Virus record (IMG/VR): IMGVR_UViG_3300037493_001709
Coordinates: 1 to 26,615 of that record
Origin: a virus
DNA: 26,615 nt
Reading direction: 5' to 3' (one strand)
Shown: positions 5,265 to 24,235 of the stretch, in pieces
Layout: each line of letters opens with the position of its first letter
How positions within the stretch are numbered: the stretch's first letter is position 1
Notes under the pieces: model-generated
Told to the model about the DNA's origin: nothing
The model's database searches: none
Seen by the model: only the letters and a program-made list of their open reading frames with translations
Program-made: the position numbers and the translations under genes

Positions 5265-5293
5265 TTAATAATAAACATTTAAAAATAAATAAT

Positions 5294-6385
5294 ATGTCCA
5301 ATTGCTCAAATTGTTATAACGGATGTACAGAGATTGTCTCTGACAGATGTGTTAGATATACAGGAATAGATGTTCCTGTCCTAGGAATCCAAACAGGTGA
5401 TTCATTATCTTTTGTAGAACAAGCATTGATTACGTTCCTTACATCTACATTAGATGGGACTGGAATCACAATAGATCTTTCCAATATAGATGTATGCGAG
5501 CTTGTAAACAAATATCTTCCTACATGTGGTAACTTATCATTAGTAGATGTATTAAAAGCTCTTGTAAAAGCTGCTTGTGATCTTCAAGAGCAAGTTGATG
5601 TACTTGATGCTGCAATTGCTGCATTGAATGCTGATTACACTTTACCAACAGATTGTTTAACAGGAGTTACTGCTTCTTCAGATACACATGCTATTGTACA
5701 AGCTGTAATAAATAAACTTTGTGCACTAAGCAGTCAATTTGCACAATTATTAATTGATCTTCCTAATACATACGTACAGATTGATCAACTTGATGTTTTA
5801 ATTCAAGCATATTTAGATAGTATAACTGGTAACCTAATTAGTAATAAAATGGTTCCTTATGCTGTACTTCCTTACTTTGGACCTATATCAGGATTCTTTG
5901 ATTCTACAGGAGCTGGTACAGGTGATTGGAATAAAATATATCTTTGTAATGGTAATAACGGAACTCCTGATTTAAGAGGTAGAGCTTTAACAGGTGCTAT
6001 CAATGGTGTTCCTGGACCAACATTAAATGCTGTGGTTGATCCTGCTGTTAGTCCAGCTAATCCAAATTATAGTCTTTTTGATGTTGCTGGTGCAAATCAA
6101 GTAACACTTACATCTACACAGATTCCTGCACACACACATTCAGCTACAGCTATCTCTACAGACTCTGGACATACACACACTCAATTTGCTGAAAACTTTA
6201 ATTTATCTAGTACAAGTACAACACTTATGAGTCGTGGTTCAGCTGGTGCTGGTGGAAGTGTAAGTACAGGTTATGCAAATATCACTACAACTGTAACAGT
6301 TAATCCAAATACAGGTGGAGGACTTCCTCATGCAAATATTCAACCAGTAACAGCTTGTTACTATATTCAATATAGACCAGTTTAA
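5294..6385 (+). CDS. Tail-collar-domain fibre protein
   Basis: I place the start at the ATG at 5294 (363 residues). An earlier in-frame ATG at 5234 would overlap the previous gene and add a poor N-terminus. Residues 1-70 form a Cys-containing adaptor. Residues about 80-118 and 135-190 are heptad-rich helices, likely trimeric coiled coils. From about residue 200 the protein matches the phage tail collar family (PF07484-like): PYFGPISGFFDSTG, a W, then YLCNGNNGTPDLRGR, a QIPAHTHS motif, and the end ACYYIQYRPV. In other phages such domains form the distal part of tail fibres and bind receptors. This is the only appendage in the block without a long Thr/Ser linker. Confidence 0.82.
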   Translation: MSNCSNCYNGCTEIVSDRCVRYTGIDVPVLGIQTGDSLSFVEQALITFLTSTLDGTGITIDLSNIDVCELVNKYLPTCGNLSLVDVLKALVKAACDLQEQVDVLDAAIAALNADYTLPTDCLTGVTASSDTHAIVQAVINKLCALSSQFAQLLIDLPNTYVQIDQLDVLIQAYLDSITGNLISNKMVPYAVLPYFGPISGFFDSTGAGTGDWNKIYLCNGNNGTPDLRGRALTGAINGVPGPTLNAVVDPAVSPANPNYSLFDVAGANQVTLTSTQIPAHTHSATAISTDSGHTHTQFAENFNLSSTSTTLMSRGSAGAGGSVSTGYANITTTVTVNPNTGGGLPHANIQPVTACYYIQYRPV

Positions 6386-6398
6386 TAAAATTAATAAG

Positions 6399-7937
6399 AT
6401 GTCATATCCATATTTACCAGTAAATCCTTGCTGTACAGATGTAGTTTTAAATACTCCTTGTGGGTGTAGCTCTACAATTACTAATGGTGGTTGTAATAGC
6501 AATGATCCATGTAGTACTCATTTAACTGCATCTAGCACTATTGTATATGATGGTCCTATACTTCCATGTATAGTAGCTGAACCATGTGATACGTTGAATG
6601 TAATCTTACAAAAGATAGATGAGATTATTTGTAATTTACAAACACAAATAAACTATTTAACTAATCAAGTTATTAATATCACCAATCAAATAATTATGAT
6701 TAATGGTGATATAATCAATATATACAATACATTAGGTGAATGTTGTGGTGCAACTACTACAACAACATCTACTACTACAGCAGCTCCTTGTGAAAGCTTC
6801 TCATTAGATAACACAGGACCTGATCCAGTAGCTGTAATCATTACTGACTGTATTACAGGAGAGCAAGAAGCTATTGTATTATTACCAGGAGAAACAGATA
6901 TTTGTGTTGAAACAGATAGTCCTCTAACTGTTCCAGGTACAGTGATTGTAACACCAAATGGTCCTTGTGGAACTACTACAACTACCACCACTGCAGCACC
7001 TACAACCACTACCACAACAACAGAAGCAATTCCTTGTGAATGTTTAACATTCTACAATGAAGATGTTGATTCTCACATTATAACTTATACAGATTGTAGT
7101 GGTAGTACAAGTAGACCAATAGAAATTCTTTCACATCAAACTATTCAAGTTTGTGGATGTTGTGGATTTGCTAGTGATGAGCTTGTAACTATATCAATAG
7201 GTGCAAATTGTATTTCTGGAGAATGTCCAACACCTTTAACAACAACAACAACTTCTAGTAGTACAAGTACAACAACTTCTACATCTACTAGTACATCAAC
7301 TTCTACAACAACATCTACTAGTACATCAACTTCTACAACAACATCTACTAGTTCAACTTCTACAACAACTACTTCAACTACATGTAATCCTGCTACTCCT
7401 CATCCATTTTCTGGTACAGTGGTAAATGGTACAAGTACTGTTCCTGATTCAGGTAGTTTCTTAGAAGATGCTTGTGCAGCTATTGATTGTTTACAAGATG
7501 CTAGTTGTACAGTAACTTCATCTTTTCCAGTATATTGGAATGTTGAATATCCAGGAATAGGGGATATTGCATATGCAGGATCTACTGGATGTACATTAGC
7601 ACTTGTAGGATATAATGGATATTTCCAAATTAACTATGATGGTATATGGGTTGTAGTTCAAATTATTGACAGCACAATAGTAGATTTTCCTACTTGTTCA
7701 CCAACAACTACCACCACCACAACTGTTGTAGATTGTATTAACTATTTAGTACAAGGACTTTCTCCATCAGGAACATGGGAAGGATTTGATTGTAATGGAG
7801 CTCCTATATCTGGAACAGTTGCAGGAGGAGGTACAGATGAAACAGGATGTATGAATGCATCAACATTAGTTCTTAGCAATGCATATATTAAAGAGTCTAC
7901 ACCTTGTACTACAACAACAACAACAACAGCATTATAA
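6399..7937 (+). CDS. Multidomain fibre/adhesin with Thr/Ser linkers
   Basis: This encodes 512 residues. Residues 1-63 are a Cys-rich adaptor. Residues 64-113 are a clear coiled coil with Ile/Leu heptads and many Asn, typical of trimeric fibres. Then come four small beta-rich domains of about 55-105 residues separated by Thr/Ser linkers. The second (near 210-275) starts CECLTFYN and carries a CGCCGF motif; a close relative lies in the next gene. The protein ends in a Thr tail (TTTTTTAL). The N-terminal adaptor is also shared with the next gene (VYDGPILPC here, TYDGTPLPC there). It is likely an elongated virion appendage exposing several small binding domains. The identity of the domains is not recognised. 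Confidence 0.7.
   Translation: MSYPYLPVNPCCTDVVLNTPCGCSSTITNGGCNSNDPCSTHLTASSTIVYDGPILPCIVAEPCDTLNVILQKIDEIICNLQTQINYLTNQVINITNQIIMINGDIINIYNTLGECCGATTTTTSTTTAAPCESFSLDNTGPDPVAVIITDCITGEQEAIVLLPGETDICVETDSPLTVPGTVIVTPNGPCGTTTTTTTAAPTTTTTTTEAIPCECLTFYNEDVDSHIITYTDCSGSTSRPIEILSHQTIQVCGCCGFASDELVTISIGANCISGECPTPLTTTTTSSSTSTTTSTSTSTSTSTTTSTSTSTSTTTSTSSTSTTTTSTTCNPATPHPFSGTVVNGTSTVPDSGSFLEDACAAIDCLQDASCTVTSSFPVYWNVEYPGIGDIAYAGSTGCTLALVGYNGYFQINYDGIWVVVQIIDSTIVDFPTCSPTTTTTTTVVDCINYLVQGLSPSGTWEGFDCNGAPISGTVAGGGTDETGCMNASTLVLSNAYIKESTPCTTTTTTTAL
7236..7383 (+). repeat. Thr/Ser-coding microsatellite with a perfect 30-bp tandem duplication
   Basis: Within this in-frame ACA/ACT/TCT tract, bases 7281-7310 are repeated exactly at 7311-7340, and a third partial copy runs to about 7352. 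Exact identity at the DNA level, including synonymous positions, points to recent slippage or unequal recombination rather than old divergence. Confidence 0.9.
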
Positions 7938-7946
7938 ATATAAAAC

Positions 7947-9395
7947 ATGGCTAATTGTCCACAAATAAATAATACAACAATAATAGGAACGAGTGCTGTC
8001 ACATATGATGGCACTCCACTTCCTTGTACAGATGTAAATACATGTGATGACTTAAATACAGTACTTGCTAAGTTTGATAGTGTTATATGTGCTGTAAACA
8101 GTGGTGTAAATGAACTTACAGATAATGTAACAAATATTACTGAAGAATTAATGCTTATTTCAGAAGATATAATTAACATTAATGATCAGCTTAATATATG
8201 TTGTCCAACAACTTCTACAACATCATCAACATCAACTTCAACATCTACATCTACTTCTACTTCTACAAGTACTACAACTACTACTACAACTGCTATACCT
8301 TGTAATTGTATAATTTTCTATAATGGAGAACCAACAATACAAGAAATAGAATATAATGATTGTTCAGGAGAAACTCAGTACACTATAATACAAGTAGGTG
8401 CTACAGATAGCTATTGTGGATGTTGTGGAGTTACACATGCTCCTTTAGTAACAGTTATAGAAGGTGGTGCATGTATTTCAGGAGTTTGTCCATCAACAAC
8501 TAGTACAACTACTACCACACCACCAACCACTACCACTACAAGTAGTTCTAGCACTTCTACTACTAGTACATCTAGTACAAGTAGCACTTCTACAACAAGT
8601 ACAAGTAGCACTACGACTACCACTACAACTGTATATGATTATTGTCCATCTTCTATTGTATCGACAAATTCACAACAGTGGTCTGCATTAACTACTACTC
8701 CTGATGGAACTATATATGGATGTACACTTAGTGGAGTTGTTTATAAATACCCTGTAGGAGGACCTTGGTCTACTGTTTCTAGTTCAGGTGCAATTAATGC
8801 AGCTCTTGCAGCAGATTCATTAGGTAATGTGTATGGTGCAGTTAATGGAGGTACATTATATTTAAAACCTTTTAGTTCATCTACATTCACTCCTATTATT
8901 CCATTTGCTGGAAATGATTCTTGGAGAGGATTATACGTAGATCAAGCTGATACATTATGGACAGTTGATAATGCTGGTGCAATTTATACAAGAGCAGTGT
9001 CTGCAACTGGATTTACATATCATGGAGTAACACCTAGTACAGGAGCAAGAGATATCACTGTAGCTCCTAATGGAGATGTTTATGTTTGTGGTCCTTTTAA
9101 TATTTGGAAACAAACAGGGGGAACTGGATCATTTGTTTCATTACCTACATCACCAGGATATTGGACTAGTATATCAGCAGCATCTAATGGAGATATTATA
9201 TGTGTTGGTGAAAAACAATCTCCTTATGCAGGTGGTGTATGGGTAATACGTTCAGGCACAACTACATTTACTAAACTTTCTTGTGATAGTGATAGTGATT
9301 GGTCAGCAGTTCGTTCAATTGGAGGTGGTCAATTCTATGCATCACAAACAATTAGTGTAGGTGAAGGTGATGGAGAAGTTTATATATTCGGTTAA
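7947..9395 (+). CDS. Fibre/adhesin with C-terminal six-bladed beta-propeller (probable)
   Basis: This encodes 482 residues. Residues 1-32 are the Cys adaptor shared with the upstream gene, and 33-87 a coiled coil. A first Thr/Ser linker (about 89-117) leads into a 65-residue Cys-rich domain (CNCIIFYN, CGCCG), paralogous to one in the upstream protein. A second linker runs to about residue 229. The C-terminal 250 residues show about six repeats of roughly 40 residues, each with a small-residue strand, a turn like DGTIY, GNVY or GDVY, and often a preceding W-S or W-x-x-I: the pattern of a tectonin-like or lyase-like beta-propeller. Such propellers often bind sugars. The likely role is host-surface recognition. 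The T/S-linker-then-propeller order recurs in the gene at 18296. Confidence 0.72.
   Translation: MANCPQINNTTIIGTSAVTYDGTPLPCTDVNTCDDLNTVLAKFDSVICAVNSGVNELTDNVTNITEELMLISEDIININDQLNICCPTTSTTSSTSTSTSTSTSTSTSTTTTTTTAIPCNCIIFYNGEPTIQEIEYNDCSGETQYTIIQVGATDSYCGCCGVTHAPLVTVIEGGACISGVCPSTTSTTTTTPPTTTTTSSSSTSTTSTSSTSSTSTTSTSSTTTTTTTVYDYCPSSIVSTNSQQWSALTTTPDGTIYGCTLSGVVYKYPVGGPWSTVSSSGAINAALAADSLGNVYGAVNGGTLYLKPFSSSTFTPIIPFAGNDSWRGLYVDQADTLWTVDNAGAIYTRAVSATGFTYHGVTPSTGARDITVAPNGDVYVCGPFNIWKQTGGTGSFVSLPTSPGYWTSISAASNGDIICVGEKQSPYAGGVWVIRSGTTTFTKLSCDSDSDWSAVRSIGGGQFYASQTISVGEGDGEVYIFG
8206..8298 (+). repeat. Thr/Ser-coding microsatellite, first linker of the propeller adhesin
   Basis: In-frame ACA/TCA/ACT/TCT run encoding about 30 Thr and Ser residues, including an ACATCTACATCTACTTCT dinucleotide-codon alternation (Thr-Ser repeats). 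It joins the coiled coil to the CGCCG-type domain. Confidence 0.8.
8494..8630 (+). repeat. Thr/Ser-coding microsatellite, second linker of the propeller adhesin
   Basis: In-frame ACA/ACT/AGT/AGC tract of about 45 codons, with the PTTTTTSSSSTST run that also occurs twice in the stalk at 4488-4772. It separates the Cys-rich domain from the propeller. Confidence 0.8.
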
Positions 9396-9415: not shown

Positions 9416-9706
9416 ATGACAGTATTTATAACATTAACATTAGCTGGGGCTAATGTGGGTCCATTCAATTTATACTCAGATATTGATGGATATACAACAG
9501 CGTTTGAATCAGGAGTGAGTGCAGCTGCATTACTTGCAGGATATGCTTCAAATTTAGTACCTGATGGTACAACAACTATTAGATTACTTTCTACTGGACA
9601 ATGTACTAACTACTTTGATATAGTGTTAAGAAGTGAACCAACCACTACAACTACTAGTACATCAAGCAGTAGTACAACAACAACAACTACCACAACTCCT
9701 CCTTAA
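9416..9706 (+). CDS. Small 'VGPF' beta-domain protein with Thr/Ser tail
   Basis: This encodes 96 residues. Residues 1-73 form a compact beta domain: ITLTLAGANVGPFNLYSDID, a middle helix-like part, then IRLLSTGQCTNYFDIVLR. Residues 74-96 are a Thr/Ser tail ending in PP. The same fold signature opens the protein at 19857 (ITIKLVQTGPNVGPFDITD, then ILKSTGKCNVSFTVMLK), so the two are paralogous domains. In both places the gene directly follows one that carries a propeller-like domain. It is probably a small docking or capping unit for the appendage made by its upstream neighbour. No enzyme motif is seen. It ends the accessory block and is followed by terminators. Confidence 0.65.
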   Translation: MTVFITLTLAGANVGPFNLYSDIDGYTTAFESGVSAAALLAGYASNLVPDGTTTIRLLSTGQCTNYFDIVLRSEPTTTTTSTSSSSTTTTTTTTPP

Positions 9707-12314: not shown

Positions 12315-13289
12315 ATGTCATACTACTATAAATATAATTTTGTATCTCCAGAGCCTGTCTACTCAACTGTAAAAGAAGAACTGAAAAGTTATTTTGATAC
12401 TGGTGCAGTAGATGATCTTTTATTTCCTACCTACTTAGACAAATGTCTTAAGAAGTTAGGAAGAACCACATTTGTAATAAGTGAGGAAATTTTATTTATA
12501 GAAGATTTCCAAGCTAGACTTCCTGATAATTTTTATGCTGTAAGAGAAGCTTGGATGTGTACAGCAGTTGCTGGTTATCCATACCAAACAGCTAATTCAT
12601 TTTATTCTCAAGCAGCTAATGCAACCACTATTCAAGTATCTCCATTAACTATTGGAGGAACTCCTTGTACTCAACCTGGTTGTCAAGATCCAGCTTGTAA
12701 TGGTACATGTATGCCAGAATTGGTACAAGCTGTATATAAAACAAACAACACTGTAGCTAGAGGATATAATCATGAGTATTTACTTAAACCTGGAAATATC
12801 TCTGCAAGACAAAACTGTGGTGTGGAATATACAAGTACTTGGGACTTCTATGCAGAAGCTCCTCCTATTCATGAGTTCACTCCTGGTGCTGCTAGTTATG
12901 ACTCATTTGATATCAGAGATAATAAGTTTGTAACCAACTTCAGAAATGGTGTTGTTCACTTGTTATTCTATGCTACAGAATATGATGAAATAGGAAATCA
13001 AATGATTCCTGATAACTATCGTATTAGAGAGTATGTAGAAGCGTTTCTTAAATTCAAGATATTTGAAACTCTTACTAATCAAACTAATGATGAAACCTTC
13101 AATCAATTACAACAGAAGTTAGTATATTACAAACAGATGTATGAAGAAGCTTATATCATGGCTGAGATTGAAATGAAGAAACAAAGTCCTTGGGAAAAAC
13201 AAAGAAGAATTAAAAACGATCTTAATAGATTTAATATGTATGAGCTTCCTAACCGTACTAATAGATATGGTAGAAGACGTAATAACTAA
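12315..13289 (+). CDS. Tail tubular / ring protein, P22 gp4-like
   Basis: This encodes 324 residues. The N-terminus (VSPEPVYSTVKEELKSYFDT, then DDLLFPTYLDKCLKKLG) is what I recognise from the crAss-like tail tubular or ring protein related to P22 gp4 head-completion proteins: helices that dock under the portal. The middle is beta-rich with a Cys cluster (CTQPGCQDPACNGTC near residues 117-131) that could bind metal. The C-terminal 80 residues are long charged helices ending in a basic, Arg-rich tail (NRTNRYGRRRNN). It forms a ring of the neck between portal and muzzle. It lies directly upstream of the muzzle gene, the order seen in this phage group. Confidence 0.8.
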   Translation: MSYYYKYNFVSPEPVYSTVKEELKSYFDTGAVDDLLFPTYLDKCLKKLGRTTFVISEEILFIEDFQARLPDNFYAVREAWMCTAVAGYPYQTANSFYSQAANATTIQVSPLTIGGTPCTQPGCQDPACNGTCMPELVQAVYKTNNTVARGYNHEYLLKPGNISARQNCGVEYTSTWDFYAEAPPIHEFTPGAASYDSFDIRDNKFVTNFRNGVVHLLFYATEYDEIGNQMIPDNYRIREYVEAFLKFKIFETLTNQTNDETFNQLQQKLVYYKQMYEEAYIMAEIEMKKQSPWEKQRRIKNDLNRFNMYELPNRTNRYGRRRNN

Positions 13290-13294
13290 TCACT

Positions 13295-16200
13295 ATGGCT
13301 GATCAAAACAACGAAAATACACAAGGTAGTAATATCAAAATGGAATATGGTGTTGCTGTTTCTGGACTTAACATGGATAATACATTAAACCAAGTTAAGA
13401 CAGGAGAGTTAACATATGCATTAAATGCAGCTTTAGAAAACTTTGATTCCAGTTCTGTTAATTACCAAAATGAACAAGGTAATGAATTTTGTGTACAGTT
13501 TCCTTCAGGATATTCTTTAATAGGAACATATTTCATTAATGAAAAAAATAAACATATATTCTTTTTAGCTAACCCTACTACAGGTGGTTCTGAAATAGGA
13601 TATATGGAAAACAATGATTGTATCTATCGTGAAATAGTTAATGCTGAATGTTTAAATTTTAATATTAATTATCCAATACATAAAGCAGTACATAAGATTG
13701 GAAATTGTACTACACAAATATATTGGACAGATGGATATAATTCTAGAAGATATTTAGATATTGAAAATATTCCATATGTAGAATCTCCTTATTCAGATCC
13801 TTGTGATCCTACATATACAGATCAATTAGATTGTAATCAGTTAAAGATACAACCTAACTTTAATATTCCTCAACTTGAAGTAACTGATATACTTAATGGT
13901 GGTGATGTAACTGCTGGTACATATCAGTTTGCTGTACAATATTCTGATGCTTCTGGTAATCCATATACATCATTTTATTCTATTACCAATCCTACACCTA
14001 TGGCTGATACGCAGTTAACTACTGCTATCTTTGACTATAAGGTGGGTAGATCTATTCAGTTAACTATTACTAATTTAGATACAACAGGGTTATATAATTA
14101 TTATAACATAGCTGTTATTAAAACAATTAATAATATTGCATCTGTAGAATTAGTTGGTACTTATTCAATTGAAAATCAAGTTGACACTATAACTTACACA
14201 GGACAAAATAATACATTAATCAAATTATCTATTACAGATATATTTGAGAAATATCCTTATTATGACATTGCTCAAGATTTAACTGCTGCACAAGATGTTC
14301 TTATGTGGGATAATCTTACATCTATAGATAGAATTAACTATCAAGGTATAGCATCTAAAGTAAATTTGTTATGGGAAACATATAAAATTCCTTCTACAGA
14401 AGATTATGCAAATGAGTTCAATGCTACAAACTTACGTGGATATTTACGTGATGAGGTGTATGCATTTGAAATAGTATTCTTATTAAAGAATGGAAAACAA
14501 ACAGATGGTTTCCATATCCCTGGAAGAATATTAAATTATAATGATTTACAACTTCCAGATATTCCAGATACTAATGCTGATTTTATAGGTGAACCTACAT
14601 ACATTGACCCTGTTACAGGAATTGGATATAGTCCTTATTGGAAGATATATAACACAGCTAGTGTATTAGGACAAGCTGATGGTGATGCTATAGGTAATGC
14701 TACACCACATGAATATGGTGAATTTGCTTATTGGGAATCTACAGAAGAATATCCTTGTAACCAAGATGTGTGGGGTGATCTTGCAGGACAAAAAATTAGA
14801 CATCATAAGTTTCCAGATGTTCTTGTAAGTCCTATATTTGAAAATCCTGTATATGCACTTACACCAGATTTTCAACCACAAATGCAAAGTGATGCTGTAT
14901 ATCCAATTGGTGTTAAAGTGGATATAGGACAAATACAATCTTTAGTACAAACTTCTAATCTTACACAAGAACAGAAAGATAATGTGGCTGGATTTAAAAT
15001 TGTAAGAGGTAATAGAAATACAAATAAATCTATTGTAGCTAAAGGGATGTTGCGTAATGTAGGAACATACACAAGAGAAGACCAAACTCTTTATTATCCA
15101 AACTATCCATATAATGATCTTAGTGAAGATCCTTTTATTAATCGAAGTTCTAATTCATATAGTGTATTAGGACAGTCAAGAGTTTGGATAGTGCAATGTA
15201 AAGTAACAGGTACATACGAATATACCGATGCTGATACAGGAAAGGTGGTAAGTTGTGTTCCTATGGTTGCTGGTAAAAACTATGAGTTTTGTTCTTTAAC
15301 AAGACCAAAGTATTTAACTGGTAAAGCATGTATAGGTCCTGGAACTTATAACACTGTAATATTTAATAGAACTGCACCAATAGATACATTTAAAATGTGG
15401 GCTGATGTAGAATGGACATGTGATAATTCTGCATTAACAACATTAAAATTTGGTAGAGTTCCTTATTCTGGATATGGAACATGTAGTCTTTGTAATTCTA
15501 ATCAAAGTAATGCTTGTGGTGGCATTGTAGTTTCAAATCTTACTCCTGGAACATGGCCATATTATTTAAATGATACAACTAGTGAGTATGCTGGAAGTGC
15601 GCAAGGTGAATGTTCAATAGCACCTCAATATCCTGTCACCACTCTTGGTGAACTTCCTCCAAGATTTGTAAATATTCCGTATGGTCAGCCTGGTTATCCT
15701 CCTGCATGTAATGCATGGAGTAGAACATCTCCATTAAATGATATTTGTGGAAAGTCACAACCATTACCTGCAATTGATAAACCTGAGTCTGCATATAGAC
15801 AAGTGTTTAATTCTCCTGATACATCATTCTCACAACCTTTCTTAGGAGATATTCTTAAGTTAGAAAATGTAATGTTTGGTGGAGGAAGAGCACACTTTGT
15901 TCCAGTAAAAGGAAATGCTAAATATAGACTTCTTTCTAGAGAAGCTCAACAAGATGCATTAGATGCTTCATTTAATATTGCAAGTGGTGATATTACAGCT
16001 GTCTTTACAGCATACCAAGCATATCTAACTATTTACATAAATGGTATTACAAGAAAGAATTATGCATATTCATATAACTCTATAGCTAGTTATGATTATT
16101 ATGCACCAATAGGTAACAATGTTACAATAGGAAATCTTACTGGTATTAAACAAAGAGAACTTGATTTAAAAGCATATTTAATTCCTGGTGTACAAAATAT

Positions 16201-18283
16201 TGGAGATGATAAAAATATAAATAATTATCAAAGAGAATCATCTGTATATACAAAAACAATAGATAAAAGAAATACATTAACAGTTGAACCTCTTCCATTT
16301 CCTAATAAAACAGAAAGTCTTATAGATAGTAATGGTGATTCTTTAATATCAGATTATTCAAGATTTATTATTGGAGGACCTAATTTATGTGATCCTGCAT
16401 ATTCAATAGATTCTAAACAAAATTATTGCAACACTCCAGAAAAAGAAAGAGATATTAAAGTGGTATCTTATTATGCGTCATTAAAGAATTTATTTCCTGG
16501 TCAATGGGGACAAATATATTCTTATGAGACAATTGATACAGGATTCCAAAGAATGTTTAATGTTAGTTCTTATGCTAATGATGTTGCATTTGGTGGTGAT
16601 ACTTTTATAAGTAAGTTTGCATATAAAACAAAACTTCCATTCTTTTTAGATAATAGAGTTAATGCTCCTGATGATTCAGATATATTCTATGATGAAATAG
16701 GTAATATTGGTTATCCAAAATTTTGGCATTCTGCTAGATCTATTTTAAATACATATCGTAGTATGATAAATATTATATCAATTAAAGCACATAGTTTTGA
16801 TTGTTATAATGATCCTGCAGCTATACCAAAACAAACAGATCCTGTAGCTGGAACACTAAGAACTTTCTATGATGGTAAGTTTTATTTATTTGCATATGGT
16901 ATTCCTTATTTCTATTGTGAATCTAATTATAATGTAGACCTTCGTCAAGCATTTAATGATAGAGAAGGAAACTTCTGGCCACACGTATCTACAGGTATTC
17001 CTGATGATTGGGTACAAGAAGAATTTACAACAATTGCATACGATAATACATACTATTATAATACAACATTCTCTAGACAGAATACAGAAAACTTTTTCTC
17101 ACATCTACCAGCAGATTGGAATGATCAGTTATGTTTTACATATTATCCATTTAGAGTGGTATATTCAAATCCTCAAGATCAAAATGCTGATGTAAGATTT
17201 AATAATTGGTTAGTATATTCTCCACTATCACTATTTGATTTTCCTCAAAACTATGGTAACCTTGTATCATTAGATGGTATTCAGAATAAGGCTATACTTG
17301 CTAGATTTGAAAATAAAACATTGTTATATAACAATTTATTGACAATGAATACAAGTAATCCTCAAGCTGCTTATTTAGGTAATCCTGATATTTTTAGTAA
17401 TACTCCAATAGATTATGCTGAAACAGATCTTGGATATGTAGGAAGTCAGAATAAGTTTTTATTAAAAATTCCTCAAGGACAAGTCACTATAGATGCTAAG
17501 AGAGGGCAAGTGTTTCTTATACAAGGAACTAAAATTGAAGAGATAGCAGGATTTGGATCTGGTGTAAATAGATTTATGACAGACCACTTATCATTTGAAA
17601 TACAAAGATATTTTCCAAAAGTTGATGTAGATAATAACTTCAATGGAATTGGTTTACATGGAGTGTATGATAGTAAATTCGAAAGAGTTATAATTACTAA
17701 ACTAGATTATATTCCTATTGACAAAGATGTTAAATATGATCCTATAACAAGGGAGTTTTATGTTGAAACAGTTTATGAAATGATTGCTCCTACTACTACT
17801 AGTACTAGTACTTCTTTAACTACTACAACCACTACAACTGTTCCTTCTATAAGTTCTGGTTCAACAGAATATCAAGCTAGCGTTGATGGTAATGGATGTG
17901 ATTCAGAAGATTATCCAGTTACTAAACCAAATATTCCTTATCCTGTAGTTTTTACTAACATGTTTAATCCAACTATTTTATGGAGTGATATTGAGTATAT
18001 AGAGGTTGTAAATGTTACATCTGATGCAGGATTTGTAATTGAATATAATGGAGTTCCTGTTACATCTGGTACTCAACTATATCCTACAGGAGCATTTACT
18101 TGGGCAGATAGTATGACAATAACAAGAGATAGTTTTGATTGTACTAATACTTATGAACTATGGGATGTTAAAATAAAATTATATGACTATACTGAATTAA
18201 CAAATACTGAAACTTTTAGTATAGGTTTTGTTCAACAGTATTGTCCTGATTGTATTACAACTACCACCACCACAACTTTATAA
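13295..18283 (+). CDS. Muzzle / tail stabilization protein, N-terminal part
   Basis: This encodes 1662 residues, beta-rich and Asn/Tyr-rich. The start (MEYGVAVSGLNMDNTLNQVK, then TGELTYALNAALENFDSS) and the following propeller-like repeats match the crAss-like stabilization protein distantly related to P22 gp10, which forms the tail muzzle. Residues up to about 1497 are this core. Residues 1500-1517 are a Thr/Ser linker, 1518-1650 a separate Ig-like beta domain, and the chain ends in a Thr tail. In crAss-like phages as I know them the core continues into an FCNKSWT region and a C-terminal part. Here those parts lie in the next two ORFs, so the gene is split. The next ORF is in the same frame, five codons after a single TAA. 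Confidence 0.8.
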   Translation: MADQNNENTQGSNIKMEYGVAVSGLNMDNTLNQVKTGELTYALNAALENFDSSSVNYQNEQGNEFCVQFPSGYSLIGTYFINEKNKHIFFLANPTTGGSEIGYMENNDCIYREIVNAECLNFNINYPIHKAVHKIGNCTTQIYWTDGYNSRRYLDIENIPYVESPYSDPCDPTYTDQLDCNQLKIQPNFNIPQLEVTDILNGGDVTAGTYQFAVQYSDASGNPYTSFYSITNPTPMADTQLTTAIFDYKVGRSIQLTITNLDTTGLYNYYNIAVIKTINNIASVELVGTYSIENQVDTITYTGQNNTLIKLSITDIFEKYPYYDIAQDLTAAQDVLMWDNLTSIDRINYQGIASKVNLLWETYKIPSTEDYANEFNATNLRGYLRDEVYAFEIVFLLKNGKQTDGFHIPGRILNYNDLQLPDIPDTNADFIGEPTYIDPVTGIGYSPYWKIYNTASVLGQADGDAIGNATPHEYGEFAYWESTEEYPCNQDVWGDLAGQKIRHHKFPDVLVSPIFENPVYALTPDFQPQMQSDAVYPIGVKVDIGQIQSLVQTSNLTQEQKDNVAGFKIVRGNRNTNKSIVAKGMLRNVGTYTREDQTLYYPNYPYNDLSEDPFINRSSNSYSVLGQSRVWIVQCKVTGTYEYTDADTGKVVSCVPMVAGKNYEFCSLTRPKYLTGKACIGPGTYNTVIFNRTAPIDTFKMWADVEWTCDNSALTTLKFGRVPYSGYGTCSLCNSNQSNACGGIVVSNLTPGTWPYYLNDTTSEYAGSAQGECSIAPQYPVTTLGELPPRFVNIPYGQPGYPPACNAWSRTSPLNDICGKSQPLPAIDKPESAYRQVFNSPDTSFSQPFLGDILKLENVMFGGGRAHFVPVKGNAKYRLLSREAQQDALDASFNIASGDITAVFTAYQAYLTIYINGITRKNYAYSYNSIASYDYYAPIGNNVTIGNLTGIKQRELDLKAYLIPGVQNIGDDKNINNYQRESSVYTKTIDKRNTLTVEPLPFPNKTESLIDSNGDSLISDYSRFIIGGPNLCDPAYSIDSKQNYCNTPEKERDIKVVSYYASLKNLFPGQWGQIYSYETIDTGFQRMFNVSSYANDVAFGGDTFISKFAYKTKLPFFLDNRVNAPDDSDIFYDEIGNIGYPKFWHSARSILNTYRSMINIISIKAHSFDCYNDPAAIPKQTDPVAGTLRTFYDGKFYLFAYGIPYFYCESNYNVDLRQAFNDREGNFWPHVSTGIPDDWVQEEFTTIAYDNTYYYNTTFSRQNTENFFSHLPADWNDQLCFTYYPFRVVYSNPQDQNADVRFNNWLVYSPLSLFDFPQNYGNLVSLDGIQNKAILARFENKTLLYNNLLTMNTSNPQAAYLGNPDIFSNTPIDYAETDLGYVGSQNKFLLKIPQGQVTIDAKRGQVFLIQGTKIEEIAGFGSGVNRFMTDHLSFEIQRYFPKVDVDNNFNGIGLHGVYDSKFERVIITKLDYIPIDKDVKYDPITREFYVETVYEMIAPTTTSTSTSLTTTTTTTVPSISSGSTEYQASVDGNGCDSEDYPVTKPNIPYPVVFTNMFNPTILWSDIEYIEVVNVTSDAGFVIEYNGVPVTSGTQLYPTGAFTWADSMTITRDSFDCTNTYELWDVKIKLYDYTELTNTETFSIGFVQQYCPDCITTTTTTTL

Positions 18284-18295
18284 AAGATTAATATA

Positions 18296-19855
18296 ATGGC
18301 TGAAGATAATAAAATAAAAACAGTTATACGTACACAGGTTTATCTTAATGATCCAGACTATTTCTGTAATAAAAGTTGGACCATGTCGTATAATTTAAAC
18401 ACTGGGTCATGGATAAGCTTTCATAGCTACATCCCTAATTTCTATATAGGAGAAAATAACTTTTTCTATTCAGGACTTAATGGATGTTGCGATGATGGTG
18501 AAGCTGGTGGATTTCAAGCTATTGCTGGAGTGATGGATAATAAACCACCAACCACCACTTCTACAACAACTTTCTATCCTTCTCCTACAACCACATCTAC
18601 TTCTACAACATTTGATTGTAATATAGATGGAACGATAATTATAACAGATTGTAGTTTAGATGGTACAGCAATAATTACAGTTCCTGCTACCACAACAACA
18701 ACAATATGCCAAAGACCTTCTAGTTTATTAACACCATTTACATTTGTAGAAGGATATACATTAGCAACAGATCCAGAAGTAATATTTACTGGTAGTTTAG
18801 AAGAAGCATGTAATGCACTCCCTGCTATTAATTACATAAATGGTCTAATTGATCTAGATGGTAATTCGTTAACTACATTTAATGGAAGTGCTACTACTAC
18901 AACTACTGAATTACAACTTAATAATATAGTTTATTATGGAGATGGAACAGATTGTACACTTGTTCCTGATGGTTTCTATTTTGCATATTCTCCATTATTA
19001 ACATTTGTTTATGAAATTTCAGGAGGAGTTATTGTAGATATATCAAGTTGTGATTGTGGAACAACTAGTACAACTACAACATTGCCACCAGATGTATCAG
19101 AATGTTGTGGAATTTTATTCTCATCAGATGATAATATATATTATTCTGATCCAGCTTTTATACCTCAAGTAAATCAATTAGATGTTCCTGGATATGTATC
19201 ATCATTAGGAATAGCAATGACTGCTGATTACTTGTGGAGTATTGATACTGATATAAAAAGATGGGATATAGATCTATCTCCATTCAGTGCAACATCTAGT
19301 GGAACAATTGCTCTACCTATGGGATACACTGCAGGATTAGGAATAGTTGCTAAAAATAATGGTATACTAATTTCAACTGATACTTCTGCATCTCCAAATG
19401 ATGTAACTGAATTAGATGTTACAGGAGGAACAGCAGTATCTACAGTTATTTTTAGTTTACAAGCTAATAGAATATCTACAGGTAACATGTTGTATACAAC
19501 AGATGGTAAACTTATTATAATTAATCAAGATACACTAACATATGACAATTATGTAACTCAATATGATTATGCAACAGGAACAGTTGAAGTTGATCTTAAT
19601 ATTGGAATTGTAGCACCTACATCATTATATGAATGTAATTGTGATATATACTTAACTAATGCATTTGGAAATCTTTATACAATTATTAAAATTTATCCAT
19701 ACGTGTTACTTGATTTAGGATTCAATGTTGGTTTACCAACTAGTTCTGCAACTCAAGTAGCTAGTTGTGTAGTTAGTTCAATTACTGATAACACTACAAC
19801 TACCACTACATCAAGTTCTTCTTCTACTACAACTACAACTACAACTACCCCTTAA
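18296..19855 (+). CDS. Muzzle middle segment fused to linker, beta domains and a propeller-like domain
   Basis: This encodes 519 residues. Residues 8-60 (DPDYFCNKSWTMSYNLNTGS, then WISFHSYIPNFYIGENNFFY) resemble the segment that normally lies inside the crAss-like muzzle after the propeller core. From residue 85 onward the protein is made of Thr/Ser linkers alternating with small Cys-containing beta domains of about 40-60 residues (one holds GTDCTLVPDGFYFAYSP). A domain of about 230 residues follows (264-495) with repeated YLWSIDTD, GILIST and GKLIIINQ type strands, which suggests a beta-propeller. The C-terminus is a Thr/Ser tail. The next ORF begins 1 base after the stop. I infer a surface-exposed decoration anchored by its N-terminal muzzle segment. 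Confidence 0.65.
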   Translation: MAEDNKIKTVIRTQVYLNDPDYFCNKSWTMSYNLNTGSWISFHSYIPNFYIGENNFFYSGLNGCCDDGEAGGFQAIAGVMDNKPPTTTSTTTFYPSPTTTSTSTTFDCNIDGTIIITDCSLDGTAIITVPATTTTTICQRPSSLLTPFTFVEGYTLATDPEVIFTGSLEEACNALPAINYINGLIDLDGNSLTTFNGSATTTTTELQLNNIVYYGDGTDCTLVPDGFYFAYSPLLTFVYEISGGVIVDISSCDCGTTSTTTTLPPDVSECCGILFSSDDNIYYSDPAFIPQVNQLDVPGYVSSLGIAMTADYLWSIDTDIKRWDIDLSPFSATSSGTIALPMGYTAGLGIVAKNNGILISTDTSASPNDVTELDVTGGTAVSTVIFSLQANRISTGNMLYTTDGKLIIINQDTLTYDNYVTQYDYATGTVEVDLNIGIVAPTSLYECNCDIYLTNAFGNLYTIIKIYPYVLLDLGFNVGLPTSSATQVASCVVSSITDNTTTTTTSSSSSTTTTTTTTP

Positions 19856-19856
19856 T

Positions 19857-20723
19857 ATGACAAAAGTTATAACCATAAAATTAGTACAGACTGGACCAAA
19901 TGTTGGACCATTTGACATTACAGATATCTATGGAAACATTATAGCTGAGAATGTTTCTAGAAAAGCATTAATTCAAGGGAGGAGTTATGTTGTAGATGAT
20001 AGTGTGTACGCAGTGATATTAAAATCTACAGGTAAGTGTAATGTATCATTCACTGTAATGTTAAAAGATTTTAATATCACAGAATATGCAAATATAAAAT
20101 ACACACAATCTGTTACAGGATGTGTATGGAGACACTTAACTAATACAGAGATATATAATATATTCTATGGAACAATAGAACCATATGTTATTGAATATCC
20201 TTTTGCTTATAAGTATCAAGATGAAATTCTTCAGAATGTACAAGACTATACAAAAGCATATAAATATCTTCCTATACCTGATGGTGTATATAATGATAAT
20301 GCAAGAATAGAAACAAATGATAAATGGTTTAACAAAGCTATTCTATACAATGGACAACAAAGTTCTGGAGTGTTAGAACTTGTAGCTAAGCCATTAAATA
20401 ATTTGCAAGCTTATAATAAATATCCTATCTTTAACGCTGAAAGTAAAACCATCACTTACACTAAGAGTGATAACTTCTATCAGTATAATACATTCTGGGC
20501 ATTAGAGAAAACTTCTCAAGTTCCATTGTTTAATACATCATGTGAAAGTCTTTCAGTTGATAAAATAGTAAATCAAGCTAATATGGATTATGGACCTCGA
20601 AGCTTTAAGAAAGCTCCTCTAAGAGCTAAAGATTTAAAGGTGAGACATATTCTTGATGACAGCTCAACAACACATCTAGTGTCTCAATTCATAGTTGTTC
20701 CTTCAATGTTATCTTATAAATAA
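19857..20723 (+). CDS. Muzzle C-terminal segment preceded by a 'VGPF' domain
   Basis: This encodes 288 residues. Residues 1-72 are the small beta domain also found in the 96-residue protein at 9416. Residues 73-288 resemble the C-terminal part of the crAss-like muzzle: IEYPFAYKYQDEIL, KSDNFYQYNTFWALEK, SCESLSVDK, NMDYGPRSFKKAPLRAKDLK and the end HLVSQFIVVPSML. In intact muzzles this region is continuous with the FCNKSWT segment found here in the previous ORF. It is likely assembled with the two upstream products. The stop-start spacing TAATATG favours translation by reinitiation. The GIY-YIG gene follows 6 bases later. Confidence 0.7.
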   Translation: MTKVITIKLVQTGPNVGPFDITDIYGNIIAENVSRKALIQGRSYVVDDSVYAVILKSTGKCNVSFTVMLKDFNITEYANIKYTQSVTGCVWRHLTNTEIYNIFYGTIEPYVIEYPFAYKYQDEILQNVQDYTKAYKYLPIPDGVYNDNARIETNDKWFNKAILYNGQQSSGVLELVAKPLNNLQAYNKYPIFNAESKTITYTKSDNFYQYNTFWALEKTSQVPLFNTSCESLSVDKIVNQANMDYGPRSFKKAPLRAKDLKVRHILDDSSTTHLVSQFIVVPSMLSYK

Positions 20724-20729
20724 ATCACT

Positions 20730-21437
20730 ATGGAAAACAAATACTATTTATACAGACACATAAGACTTGATAAAAATGAACCATTTTACATTGGTATTGG
20801 TACAAAAAGAAATCATAAGCATTTTAGTTTAAAAGCAGAATATAGTAGAGCATATGAAACAAATAGAAAAGAATCCTATATTTGGAATAATATAGTTAAT
20901 AAAACTTCCTACGAAATAGAAATTCTTTTAGAATCAGATGATTATAATTTTATAAAAGAAAAAGAAATAGAGTTTATATCTTTATATGGCAGAATAAATA
21001 ACAATACTGGAATATTAACTAATATGACTGATGGAGGAGATGGGTTCATAGGTTATATACCTAGTAAAGAAAAAATTGAAAAACATAAAATATTTATGAC
21101 TGGTAGAAAACAGTCTCAAGAAGAAAAACAAAAAAGAAATGAATCAAGAAAAGGATATTTACATAGTGAAGAAACTAAACTCAAAATATCTAATTCACAT
21201 AAAGGTAAAAAAACTTCTAAAGAACATTTAGAAAAATTATACAAAGGTCAAATTTTAGCTAATTCAAAACCTATTAATCAATATGATTTAGAAGGAAATT
21301 TTATTAGAGAATGGCAAAGTGCTACTGTAGCTGCTAAGGAAATAAATTTACACCCAACATCAATAAGACATTGTGTACAGGGTAAAACAAAAACTTCTGG
21401 AGGATATATCTGGAAAGCACAAATATCATACAAGTAA
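20730..21437 (+). CDS. GIY-YIG homing endonuclease with NUMOD DNA-binding modules
   Basis: This encodes 235 residues. The GIY-YIG nuclease domain starts at YYLYRHIRLDKNEPFYIGIG (residues 5-24). E79 in KEIEFISLYGR is the probable catalytic Glu, and NMTDGGDG (98-105) is the usual loop. Residues about 126-157 (GRKQSQEEKQKRNESRKG and HSEETKLKISNSHKGK) are NUMOD3-type helices that lie along DNA. Residues about 182-231 (NQYDLEGNFIREWQSATVAA, then the SGGYIW end) form a NUMOD1/helix-turn-helix type module. It is a selfish element that cuts a specific site in genomes lacking it. It sits freestanding between the muzzle and the next virion gene, overlapping that gene's start by one base. No intron is visible around it. 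Confidence 0.92.
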   Translation: MENKYYLYRHIRLDKNEPFYIGIGTKRNHKHFSLKAEYSRAYETNRKESYIWNNIVNKTSYEIEILLESDDYNFIKEKEIEFISLYGRINNNTGILTNMTDGGDGFIGYIPSKEKIEKHKIFMTGRKQSQEEKQKRNESRKGYLHSEETKLKISNSHKGKKTSKEHLEKLYKGQILANSKPINQYDLEGNFIREWQSATVAAKEINLHPTSIRHCVQGKTKTSGGYIWKAQISYK

Positions 21438-24235
21438 TGAGTAGCGGTAAAGTAAAATGCACATGTGGATGGTCATGGAACAAATCTGATTCTAGTAAGA
21501 AAGATATGTACATATGTCATGAGTGCGGTAGAGATAATAGCAACAACATGCAGAATGGTGGTTGGTTAGATAACTATGCTGATGGTGGAACAATGCAAGA
21601 ACACCAAGAGAATTATAATGATTATAAAGTTTCTGCTCCTAAAGGAATGGTAGGAGATGGATTCTCTAATGTAGGTAGAAACTATTCTCCTGCATGGGGT
21701 GGACAGTTTCAGATGGGTGGTTCTATTCCTGGAGCTGTAGGTTTCTCATATGCACGTACAAATGATCCTGCTCCTAGTAATGGTCCTTATGCAAAGAAAA
21801 CAAAAGCTAGTGCACAAGAAGGAATTAATATAGTTCCTATAAAAGGAAGATCGCATTATAGTCCTTTATCTAATTCTATTTATTTAGATGAAACAAATGG
21901 TCCTAGTGTTAAAGGTCATGAACTTTATCATTATCAACAACATCAAGAAGGTAGAGATTTTATTCCAGAAAAATGGAATTGGGGTCCATACCTTCCACCA
22001 AGTCAACCACAGACACCATACACTGAAGAAGCTGCATCATTAGGATATAATAGAAGAAGATTAGAAGCTGAAGGTATATTACAAGATATGTATAAGTATA
22101 TGCCTGATTTACAATTTATGCCTAAAGAAGTTGTAGAAGAAGGTTTTAATCTTTCTTCAGGAATACACATGCAGGGTATTGAGGATAACATGTATGATAA
22201 TCCATATACATTAGAAGGAGAGGCAAGACTTACAGAAACTCCTGAAGGAAGACAACAATTAGAAGAACGTGGTATTGGTGTACGTCAATTTCAAAATGGT
22301 GGATGGTTAAATAAATATGATGTAGCTCAAACAGGTATGAGAATATTAAATGAAGGTGATGACTTTATGAAAAATAATTCTCGTGGTAAATTTAATAAAG
22401 CTGGAAAAGATTTAGATCAAATAATAGCTAATAATAAAGAAAGACAAAAGAATCGTGTAGTTGATATACGTCAGTCTCCTAAGAAAGCAGTTAATGATAA
22501 AATAGCAGCTTCAAAAAAATTACATACTACTGATCTAGATAAACTTAATGTAAGAAATAAAACTCAAGCAGAAATAGATGCAGAAGAAGCAGCTTATAAT
22601 AAATCTGTTGCTGAACAAAGAAAAGCTACAAGAGAAAAATCCGATGCTAATGTTTTAAATGATTGGTCAGAATTTTTTGATTCTGATAATCATACAAGAC
22701 AGAATTGGGAAGATTCAACAGCTGGTCTTGAGTCTAAGTTTAGAGTGTCTGATGAACCAAACTTTTTTGATGATTACTTGAATCCTTTTAGCATGATCGG
22801 TGGTATGGCTGCTGATCTTGGTGCTTCTCCTAATCAAGCAAAACAAACAGATAGTTACCTACCTTATGTTACAGCAATTGGTACTCCATTATTAACAGGA
22901 GCATTAGAAGGAATTGGTGCAAAGAGTAATAAAGAGTTTGTAAATAACCTTATTAATCCAGCTAACATAGTTCCTGGATATAAATCTGCTGAAAAATATT
23001 TAGCTCCAAAAATTAAAAAGACATTAGCAAAAGGTGCGTTACCTATTCTTGAAGGTGCAAAAAATTTAGAAACTTTAGGAAGAGAAGCAGTTAGAGGAAT
23101 AAACGATGCTGTTATTTATCCTATTAAATATAGAAAACAAATTGCTGATGTAAAAAAATTACATGGTGAGTTAGCTTCACAATTAGGACAAGATGAAGGA
23201 GTTAAAAGATTAAGTGGAGTGCTAGGAATAGATCCAACTAATTTAGATTATCCATCACTAACAACTTTTCCAAGAATAGGTAGTCACTATAGCCCTCGTT
23301 TGAATAATATAAATATGGACTTTAGACAACTAAATAAATTTAAAAACTCTCCTGAATTAATGCTTTCCGCAAACACAGTGCATGGTCATGAAGTTGGACA
23401 TTGGATGCAAAGAGAAGCTGATAGATTTAGTCCTAAATATAAAGAAGCATTATCTAATTATAATAACAGTAATAATAAATCAATATTTTTTGAACCTTTG
23501 CCTACATCAAACCCTACTGTAATAGATAGATTTGCACAACAATTATATGGATATGATAGAGGTACAAACATGATAGATATAAGCGATGCATTATCAAATC
23601 AAGTAGATGTAAATACATTATATGATAATGCAAAATACTTTACACATCAAGGGACAGAAGCTCTCCCACATCTTAGAGAGATGCGTCAGAACATGTTAAA
23701 TAAAGGATACATTAAAAATATATATGACCCAATTTCTGAAGAAACTATTAATAAGTTTATATCTGAAAATCCTATTGATAGAATTTCAAGTTTTACAAAA
23801 CCTGGTTCTAAACAAACAAAAGGTTTAGAAACTATATTTAGAAATCTTCCATCAGTAGTTGGTGCTGGAGCTGTAGGTACAGGTGCTGCTTATCAAATGC
23901 AAAATCAACAAGGAGCTCCACAATATGAAGAAGGAGGAGTTATTAAAGATGATCTTGGACAATGGGCTCATCCAGGAGAAATAACAGAAATCAATTCTAA
24001 TGATATAACTATGGAAGGAGTTCCATATGATGTACTTGGTATATCTGATACTGGTGATACTAAACTAATGAAACCAGGAAAGAAGTATAAGTTCAAAGGA
24101 AAGAAGGTAACAGAGTTTCCAATGGCTAAGAATGGATTAAGACAAGAACAAAAAGGTTTGGTTAATCTAGATAATCTAACTAACTTTACAAACTATAACA
24201 CAAAGCAACCAGGTGGATGGTTGGACCAATACTAA
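21437..24235 (+). CDS. Large virion protein with zinc ribbon and two HExxH metallopeptidase-like domains
   Basis: This encodes 932 residues. C8-x-C10 and C27-xx-C30 form a zinc-ribbon start (KCTCGWSWNKSDSS, then ICHECGRD). Two HExxH motifs follow: H161-E-L-Y-H165 and H651-E-V-G-H655. Each is preceded by a matching stretch (RSHYSPLSNSIYL and GSHYSPRLNNINM), so the domains appear duplicated. Possible third metal ligands are E197/E198 and the Glu in TEALPHLREMR. Short motifs NGGWLDNY (40-47), NGGWLNKY (287-294) and GGWLDQY (926-932) and the C-terminal region GQWAHPGEITEINSNDITME (about 842 on) are features I associate with crAss-like virion or cargo proteins. Long charged helices lie at about 310-430. 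It may be an ejected protein that cleaves host or virion protein. The ATG overlaps the upstream stop. Confidence 0.75.
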   Translation: MSSGKVKCTCGWSWNKSDSSKKDMYICHECGRDNSNNMQNGGWLDNYADGGTMQEHQENYNDYKVSAPKGMVGDGFSNVGRNYSPAWGGQFQMGGSIPGAVGFSYARTNDPAPSNGPYAKKTKASAQEGINIVPIKGRSHYSPLSNSIYLDETNGPSVKGHELYHYQQHQEGRDFIPEKWNWGPYLPPSQPQTPYTEEAASLGYNRRRLEAEGILQDMYKYMPDLQFMPKEVVEEGFNLSSGIHMQGIEDNMYDNPYTLEGEARLTETPEGRQQLEERGIGVRQFQNGGWLNKYDVAQTGMRILNEGDDFMKNNSRGKFNKAGKDLDQIIANNKERQKNRVVDIRQSPKKAVNDKIAASKKLHTTDLDKLNVRNKTQAEIDAEEAAYNKSVAEQRKATREKSDANVLNDWSEFFDSDNHTRQNWEDSTAGLESKFRVSDEPNFFDDYLNPFSMIGGMAADLGASPNQAKQTDSYLPYVTAIGTPLLTGALEGIGAKSNKEFVNNLINPANIVPGYKSAEKYLAPKIKKTLAKGALPILEGAKNLETLGREAVRGINDAVIYPIKYRKQIADVKKLHGELASQLGQDEGVKRLSGVLGIDPTNLDYPSLTTFPRIGSHYSPRLNNINMDFRQLNKFKNSPELMLSANTVHGHEVGHWMQREADRFSPKYKEALSNYNNSNNKSIFFEPLPTSNPTVIDRFAQQLYGYDRGTNMIDISDALSNQVDVNTLYDNAKYFTHQGTEALPHLREMRQNMLNKGYIKNIYDPISEETINKFISENPIDRISSFTKPGSKQTKGLETIFRNLPSVVGAGAVGTGAAYQMQNQQGAPQYEEGGVIKDDLGQWAHPGEITEINSNDITMEGVPYDVLGISDTGDTKLMKPGKKYKFKGKKVTEFPMAKNGLRQEQKGLVNLDNLTNFTNYNTKQPGGWLDQY

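Follow-up and report, generated by a model that had tools for sequence, protein, structure and literature searches.

The best described muzzle of a crAss-like phage is gp44 of phicrAss001, a hexamer at the tail tip that carries a gate loop (PMC10172136). In this structure, IG1 lies between blades and hangs below the propeller, and IG2 (residues 318-1021) is inserted into blade 3; the muzzle tip is proposed to contact the cell, and insertions are proposed to alter the muzzle surface (Bayfield et al. 2023; PMC10172136). gp44 is one chain of 1371 residues, and single-chain muzzle genes were also found in the other named Crassvirales that we examined (cr85, cr128, DAC15, phi14:2, cr1, cr118, cr108, and others). 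The Bohxovirus record (PV686213.1; L095) was left out of this comparison, because the standard-code annotation of its muzzle region consists of many short ORFs, probably as a result of stop-codon reassignment and not of a true split.

T4-type DNA polymerase 43A/43B and NrdA-a/b of Aeh1 are examples of one protein encoded by two genes, the products of which assemble, and in these cases the cuts are tied to homing endonucleases. The locus described here differs from them in that its cuts hold no endonuclease, carry added domains, and lie in a structural protein. Searches of the open-access literature gave no description of a split muzzle. The muzzle protein family is known; within the scope of these searches, neither its division nor the use made of the cut points has been described. 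Cuts inside propeller blades are not expected of a nozzle that must hold pressurised DNA and then open on cue.

A muzzle divided among three ORFs

The window, i.e., the whole stretch of DNA analysed, is the 26.6-kb viral record IMGVR_UViG_3300037493_001709. Directly downstream of a gene that matched CrAss_Ring_1 (12315-13289, E 4e-10) lie three consecutive ORFs, ORF1 (13295-18283, 1662 aa), ORF2 (18296-19855, 519 aa), and ORF3 (19857-20723, 288 aa), which a preliminary description had interpreted as a muzzle split into three chains with adhesin-like modules at both breaks. The ORFs, their order, and their residue limits were confirmed. The features of the locus are as follows.

13295..17785, plus strand: chain 1 muzzle core, residues 1-1497 (crAss_MUZ, E 2e-35; PHROG 37948, E 3e-98 to residue 1497; gp44 by hhalign)
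17786..18283, plus strand: chain 1 C-terminal tail at break 1 (from the sequence; relatives have other modules or a bare stub here)
18284..18295, plus strand: break 1 intergenic gap of 12 nt (in frame here, out of frame in most relatives)
18296..18481, plus strand: chain 2 muzzle segment, residues 1-62, FCNKSWT...FFYSGLN (PHROG 15100, E 2e-10; gp44 1197-1234; dN/dS 0.12)
18482..19057, plus strand: chain 2 stem with GCC/DCxLxG Cys-rich repeats, Thr linkers, and the CxRP domain (residues 138-254) (kept in 77/80 loci)
19112..19789, plus strand: chain 2 adhesin-like beta-propeller module, about residues 273-498 (AF2 and Foldseek)
19790..19855, plus strand: chain 2 C-terminal Thr/Ser run and stop TAA (from the sequence)
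19853..19859, plus strand: break 2 stop/start TAATATG with a 1-nt gap (from the sequence)
19857..20108, plus strand: chain 3 N-terminal VGPF domain, residues 1-84 (in every split locus)
20109..20723, plus strand: chain 3 muzzle C-terminus, residues 85-288, from propeller strand GCVWRH (PHROG 15100, E 1e-11; dN/dS 0.11; alignment with unsplit relatives)
9416..9706, plus strand: stand-alone VGPF domain with a Thr tail (match to the chain 3 VGPF domain, E 1e-8)

ORF1 matched the crAss_MUZ family (PF25731) with 122.6 bits against a cut-off of 27 (E 2e-35), as well as PHROGs 37948 and 15100, and the PHROG similarity stopped at residue 1497, about where the end of the core had been placed. Residues 14-64 of ORF2 matched these two PHROGs in their later part (E 2e-10 and 5e-9), and residues 63-286 of ORF3 matched the C-terminus of PHROG 15100 (E 1e-11), so that the assignment of the FCNKSWT segment and of the ORF3 end to the muzzle was upheld. 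By alignment with unsplit muzzles, ORF1, the N-terminal ~62 residues of ORF2, and the C-terminal ~204 residues of ORF3 correspond in this order to one muzzle protein. Profile-profile comparison of the window family with the phicrAss001 gp44 family gave an hhalign probability of 99.9% over 1181 columns at 17% identity; a PDB sequence search with ORF1 or with the alignment gave nothing useful. The two are homologous over nearly the whole length, the gene follows a ring protein in both, and the propeller/IG/crass order is expected in both. By homology with gp44, the chain 1 core comprises the N-terminal propeller blades, IG1, the IG2/crass region, and the start of the C-terminal propeller, and it ends with the strand REFYVETVYEM. 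The C-terminal propeller part (gp44 1197-1321) is present in the window on chains 2 and 3, with the chain 2 segment aligning to strands that finish one blade and open the next. Behind the core, the chain 1 tail consists of a Thr/Ser linker (about 17792-17839), a beta-rich module of ~135 residues, a Thr run, and the stop TAA.

That the three pieces are one protein elsewhere, as the preliminary description had stated, was borne out by tblastn, which placed them side by side within one gene in Leptolyngbya phage Lbo-JY46, csAssE-Sib, and the Flavobacterium Fpv phages. These muzzles, together with that of the IMG/VR locus L086, are the nearest unsplit ones; they contain the core, segment, and C-terminus in order, but on one chain and with two turns that lack added modules. 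A single gene likewise encodes the muzzle of Cellulophaga phi17:2, where break 1 holds ~300 additional residues. In phi17:2 and phi4:1 the break 1 site hosts an insertion as in the window, although the insert is in-line, leaves the chain uncut, and is not built of Thr-linked modules. The single-polypeptide form is absent from the window (three ORFs) and from its whole clade. As a single chain is a property of the known members and not a requirement of homology, we counted the window as a muzzle variant, and the division of this muzzle over three chains is confirmed. Lbo-JY46 (L081) carries an unsplit crAss-type muzzle and has a cyanobacterium as its recorded host, which is unusual, since the crAss-like group is thought to infect Bacteroidota.

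Distribution of the split among relatives

IMG/VR was searched with ORF3, and the best 80 of 406 relatives were kept; 80 loci including the window, reduced to 67 distinct ones, could be scored for core, segment, and C-terminus. Among the distinct loci, 44 were of the two-chain and 23 of the three-chain type, with the first cut at the same place, one of the latter (L017) having a possible frameshift at break 1. A second scan used a profile headed by an unsplit sequence; of its 412 relatives, 80 were kept, 79 of which were split with the VGPF domain heading chain 3, and the sole unsplit one (L098) duplicates the L086 contig. The two scans overlap and gave 159 split IMG/VR contig matches, the union of which corresponds to 120 distinct chain-3 ends. 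Cut 2 and the VGPF domain at the head of chain 3 were found in all 159 matches, indicating that cut 2 is fixed throughout a large clade from the environment. The two-chain muzzles, which belong to uncultured environmental crAss-like phages (L009, L022, and others), share cut 2, the VGPF domain, and the plan of the CxRP stem with the window, but break 1 is uncut in them and core and segment are on one chain. The same break points therefore recur in related genomes, as the preliminary description had suggested checking, but they are not peculiar to one phage, cut 2 being clade-wide and cut 1 present in about a third.

The three-chain state was scattered on the tree of core plus segment, which requires at least four changes, and a single clean origin of this state was accordingly rejected, although some of the changes may reflect recombination. 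In L066, for example, the core groups with the window, whereas the segment and chain 3 resemble a different, two-chain clade, indicating that recombination near break 1 contributes. For L001-L080, the chain 3 tree required 11 changes of architecture versus 4 on the core tree, and this disagreement suggests frequent recombination between the chain genes. No relative was found in a scan of bacterial genomes. An entry of BFVD, from Virus NIOZ-UU157, was 40% identical over 925 columns; a relative has thus already been deposited, and this virus is probably related to the two-chain muzzle phages.

Position of the breaks

Profile alignment placed break 1 at gp44 1196/1197 (between DVYFT and YKDHCL) and break 2 at gp44 1234/1235 (between FYAFK and DGKMW), and both sites are tight turns in gp44 and in most of its relatives. 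The length variation known for gp44-type muzzles lies in the crass and IG2 regions and not at these turns (PMC10172136). Given that the identity with gp44 is only 17%, the exact strand placement rests on the profile alignment. Because IG2 occupies residues 318-1021, both cuts fall in the part after it, which we took as the remaining propeller blades, and the strand pattern suggests that each is the turn joining strands two and three of its blade, the blades being consecutive. If IG1, located between blades, hangs below the propeller as described, turns of this type should, from propeller topology, share the distal face. By the gp44 alignment, the cut sites are hairpin turns within the C-terminal part of the beta-propeller, and loops of the crass domain are not involved.

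In two-chain relatives, break 1 corresponds to a tight hairpin (FYVEDVISGITFRTQVYL; e.g., FYVED-VISG-ITFRTQVYL). AF2 models were made of L022, a two-chain relative, and of chain 2 of the window together with the end of its chain 1; of the muzzle propeller, they cover the C-terminal part only, mostly with low or middling confidence. The L022 model showed strands 197-204 and 207-213 with a two-residue turn exactly at break 1 (pLDDT about 78), and a Foldseek search of the PDB with it gave no significant match to gp44 or anything else. In the window's model, the chain 1 core closes on the strand REFYVETVYEM and chain 2 opens with IKTVIRTQVY.

Modules appended at the breaks

Among the 23 three-chain loci, chain 1 ended with nothing or a bare Thr stub in 8 and with a Fib_succ_major domain in 9. 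The remaining tails, the kinds of which were judged by eye, carry beta modules (the window, L016, L031, and L080), a leucine-rich-looking repeat (L026), or a 682-residue multi-module extension (L059). Fib_succ_major (PF09603), which we take to be a lectin-like family, scored above the cut-off in L001, L005, L021, and L070 (E 2e-28 to 1e-35), and its profile did not match the window. The endings differed even between close relatives. The cores of L001, L002, and L005 are 83-89% identical to that of the window, and these four phages have three different endings, namely a beta module in the window, Fib_succ_major in L001 and L005, and a bare Thr stub in L002; likewise, L016 and L031 differ in the last module with cores 91% identical. 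The claim of adhesin-like modules at the breaks was therefore supported by their differences among relatives, but the 8 of 23 loci with a bare Thr stub or nothing show that cut 1 does not need such modules. Fib_succ_major ends would suit as the target of a diversity-generating retroelement, and no template repeat of such an element was present within the fetched loci, which are partial.

The Thr/Ser linkers and the VGPF domain described for the break regions are evident in the sequence. The 'Ig-like' module of ORF1 was beta-rich in the AF2 model, with a pLDDT of ~45-71, and matched nothing in Pfam or PHROGs; the low model confidence and the lack of a family match leave the Ig label unproven. 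In chain 2, the stem of Cys-rich repeats and CxRP was kept in 77 of 80 loci, which agrees with the small Cys-rich beta domain noted before, and the tip beyond it was variable. The window's tip was modelled as a propeller, mostly with pLDDT above 90, and Foldseek found a resemblance to YWTD/LDLR and BtuG propellers (best E 4e-8), substantiating the propeller-like domain. VGPF and CxRP are near-constant parts and are not swapped.

At break 2, 18 of 79 loci contained extra genes encoding proteins headed by a VGPF domain (E 4e-6 to 9e-12), followed by a linker and a module. The occurrence of VGPF in chain 3, in a stand-alone protein, and in these inserted proteins suggests an adaptor role, and the stand-alone protein at 9416-9706 may belong to this adaptor family as well. 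The tail-fibre region upstream (4152-9395) comprises several ORFs with long Thr/Ser linkers, one of which ends in an Lcl_C domain, and another has a propeller-like C-terminus as judged by eye. We also looked for the CxRP module in the window's tail-fibre ORFs, and sharing was not supported.

Proposed assembly of the split muzzle

We propose that a crAss-type muzzle, serving as tail nozzle and gate, has been cut genetically at two beta-hairpin turns, and that three (elsewhere two) co-assembling chains rebuild one muzzle whose chain ends act as exchangeable sites for probable host-binding domains. We give this reading a probability of about 0.8. The genes of the three chains are adjacent and probably coupled, and strand complementation would join their products into one muzzle subunit, of which each tail would have six. 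The strands flanking break 1, namely REFYVETVYEM as the last muzzle strand of chain 1 and IKTVIRTQVYL as the opening strand of chain 2, would form a pair; chain 2 would supply strands to two consecutive blades, and chain 3 the rest. We strongly infer co-assembly of the chains in the virion, presumably with a 6:6:6 stoichiometry and with the modules at the tail tip. The cuts would free chain ends for Thr/Ser-linked modules (the beta module, the Cys-rich domains, the YWTD-like propeller, and the VGPF domain), which would extend outward at the tail tip and most likely attach to the host surface or a receptor. Located at chain ends or on separate genes, modules could come, go, or be exchanged while the core stays undisturbed.

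If exchangeable domains are attached at the cuts, this would provide a testable account of how binding varies without remodelling of the tail in phages that are mostly uncultured. The proposals of the structural paper on cell contact by the muzzle tip and on its alteration by insertions (PMC10172136) point to the same end, here apparently attained through cutting of the chain. More tentatively, the cuts might constitute a general plug-in display on the tail nozzle, in which a shared VGPF adaptor permits exchange of domains and genes while the pressure-holding nozzle stays intact, and in which module binding might signal through the cut blades and open the gate. For annotation, 'hypothetical' ORFs downstream of a muzzle gene may be muzzle pieces.

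The junctions bear on whether there are separate chains at all. The gaps at break 1 were mostly 1-34 nt, with one 14-nt overlap and one 1263-nt gap holding a gene, and those at break 2 were -1 to +14 nt in all 67 distinct loci; the stop before chain 3 was TAA in 67/67, commonly within TAATATG or TAATG, which points to translational coupling. Frameshifts or assembly errors within a single ORF might be suspected in a metagenomic contig, and L017 has the possible frameshift mentioned above, but the same cuts and conserved start regions, with domains added on either side, occurred in 159 contig matches from many samples. This excludes chance and assembly error, refutes the artefact for the clade, and leaves it a negligible probability for the window. 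Joining of the ORFs in vivo into one long chain by stop readthrough, programmed frameshift, splicing, or an intein would be compatible with the shared frame of ORF1 and ORF2 in the window, and introns, inteins, and stop recoding are known in crAss-like phages (PMC7886860). Nevertheless, we consider it very improbable, since the gaps across relatives were spread over all three frames at both breaks (3/9/11 at break 1 and 15/34/18 at break 2) and the start codons were kept. Furthermore, an Rfam search of 13000-21500 gave no RNA family match, including self-splicing introns, there were no intron-type ORFs at the breaks, and Pfam and PHROGs revealed no intein domain in the ORFs. Whole genes also separate the chains in L059 and 18 other loci: an ORF with a GDSGSA serine-protease-like motif (4984-6228 of L059, no match in Pfam or NCBIfam) lies between chains 1 and 2, and a complete gene lies between chains 2 and 3 in 18 of the 79 loci of the second scan.

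If the chains are separate, they might also act separately, with chain 1 as a shortened but complete nozzle, chain 2 as a free adhesin with a leftover piece of 50 residues, and chain 3 as another virion protein. The large non-muzzle parts of chains 2 and 3 would fit this, as would the disagreement of the chain 3 and chain 1 trees for some loci, from which the chains can recombine apart. We nonetheless regard it as unlikely in view of the selection on the pieces. Pooled pairwise dN/dS in three-chain loci was 0.26 for the core, 0.12 for the segment, and 0.11 for the chain-3 C-terminus, compared with 0.36 for VGPF, 0.40 for the chain 1 tail (leaving out the window/L001 pair, the modules of which are unrelated), and 0.46 for the chain 2 tail, and the values in two-chain loci were similar. 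The muzzle pieces on all chains are therefore under strong purifying selection and the appended modules under looser selection. The supposed leftovers are the most constrained parts of the locus, and constraint equal to or beyond that of the core would be difficult to account for if they had lost their function in the muzzle; in addition, gene order and near-zero spacing are kept, and by alignment the pieces are needed to complete blades found in every unsplit homologue. The split muzzle might instead co-assemble as we propose but carry domains that stabilise the tail, shield the gate, or dock other fibres and do not bind the host. For CxRP (77/80 loci) and VGPF (all loci), near-constancy fits a structural or docking role, whereas the outer modules can differ in type or be missing even among close relatives, evolve faster, and include Fib_succ_major, presumably lectin-like, and the YWTD/BtuG-like propeller; this alternative is a minority reading that still carries appreciable weight.

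Genes downstream of the muzzle

A homing endonuclease gene (20730-21437; NUMOD1/NUMOD3 and a homing-endonuclease PHROG) adjoins chain 3. It was considered as a cause of the split and rejected, because its position after chain 3 is not within either break. Close homologues occupy the same spot in L034 and L076 and are absent in most relatives, so that the gene has the appearance of a mobile element inserted between genes. The next gene behind the muzzle (21437-24235) encodes 932 aa, a probable cargo protein with the metallopeptidase-like motifs HELYH and HEVGH, and its homologues at the same place range in ORF length from about 226 to over 2000 aa.
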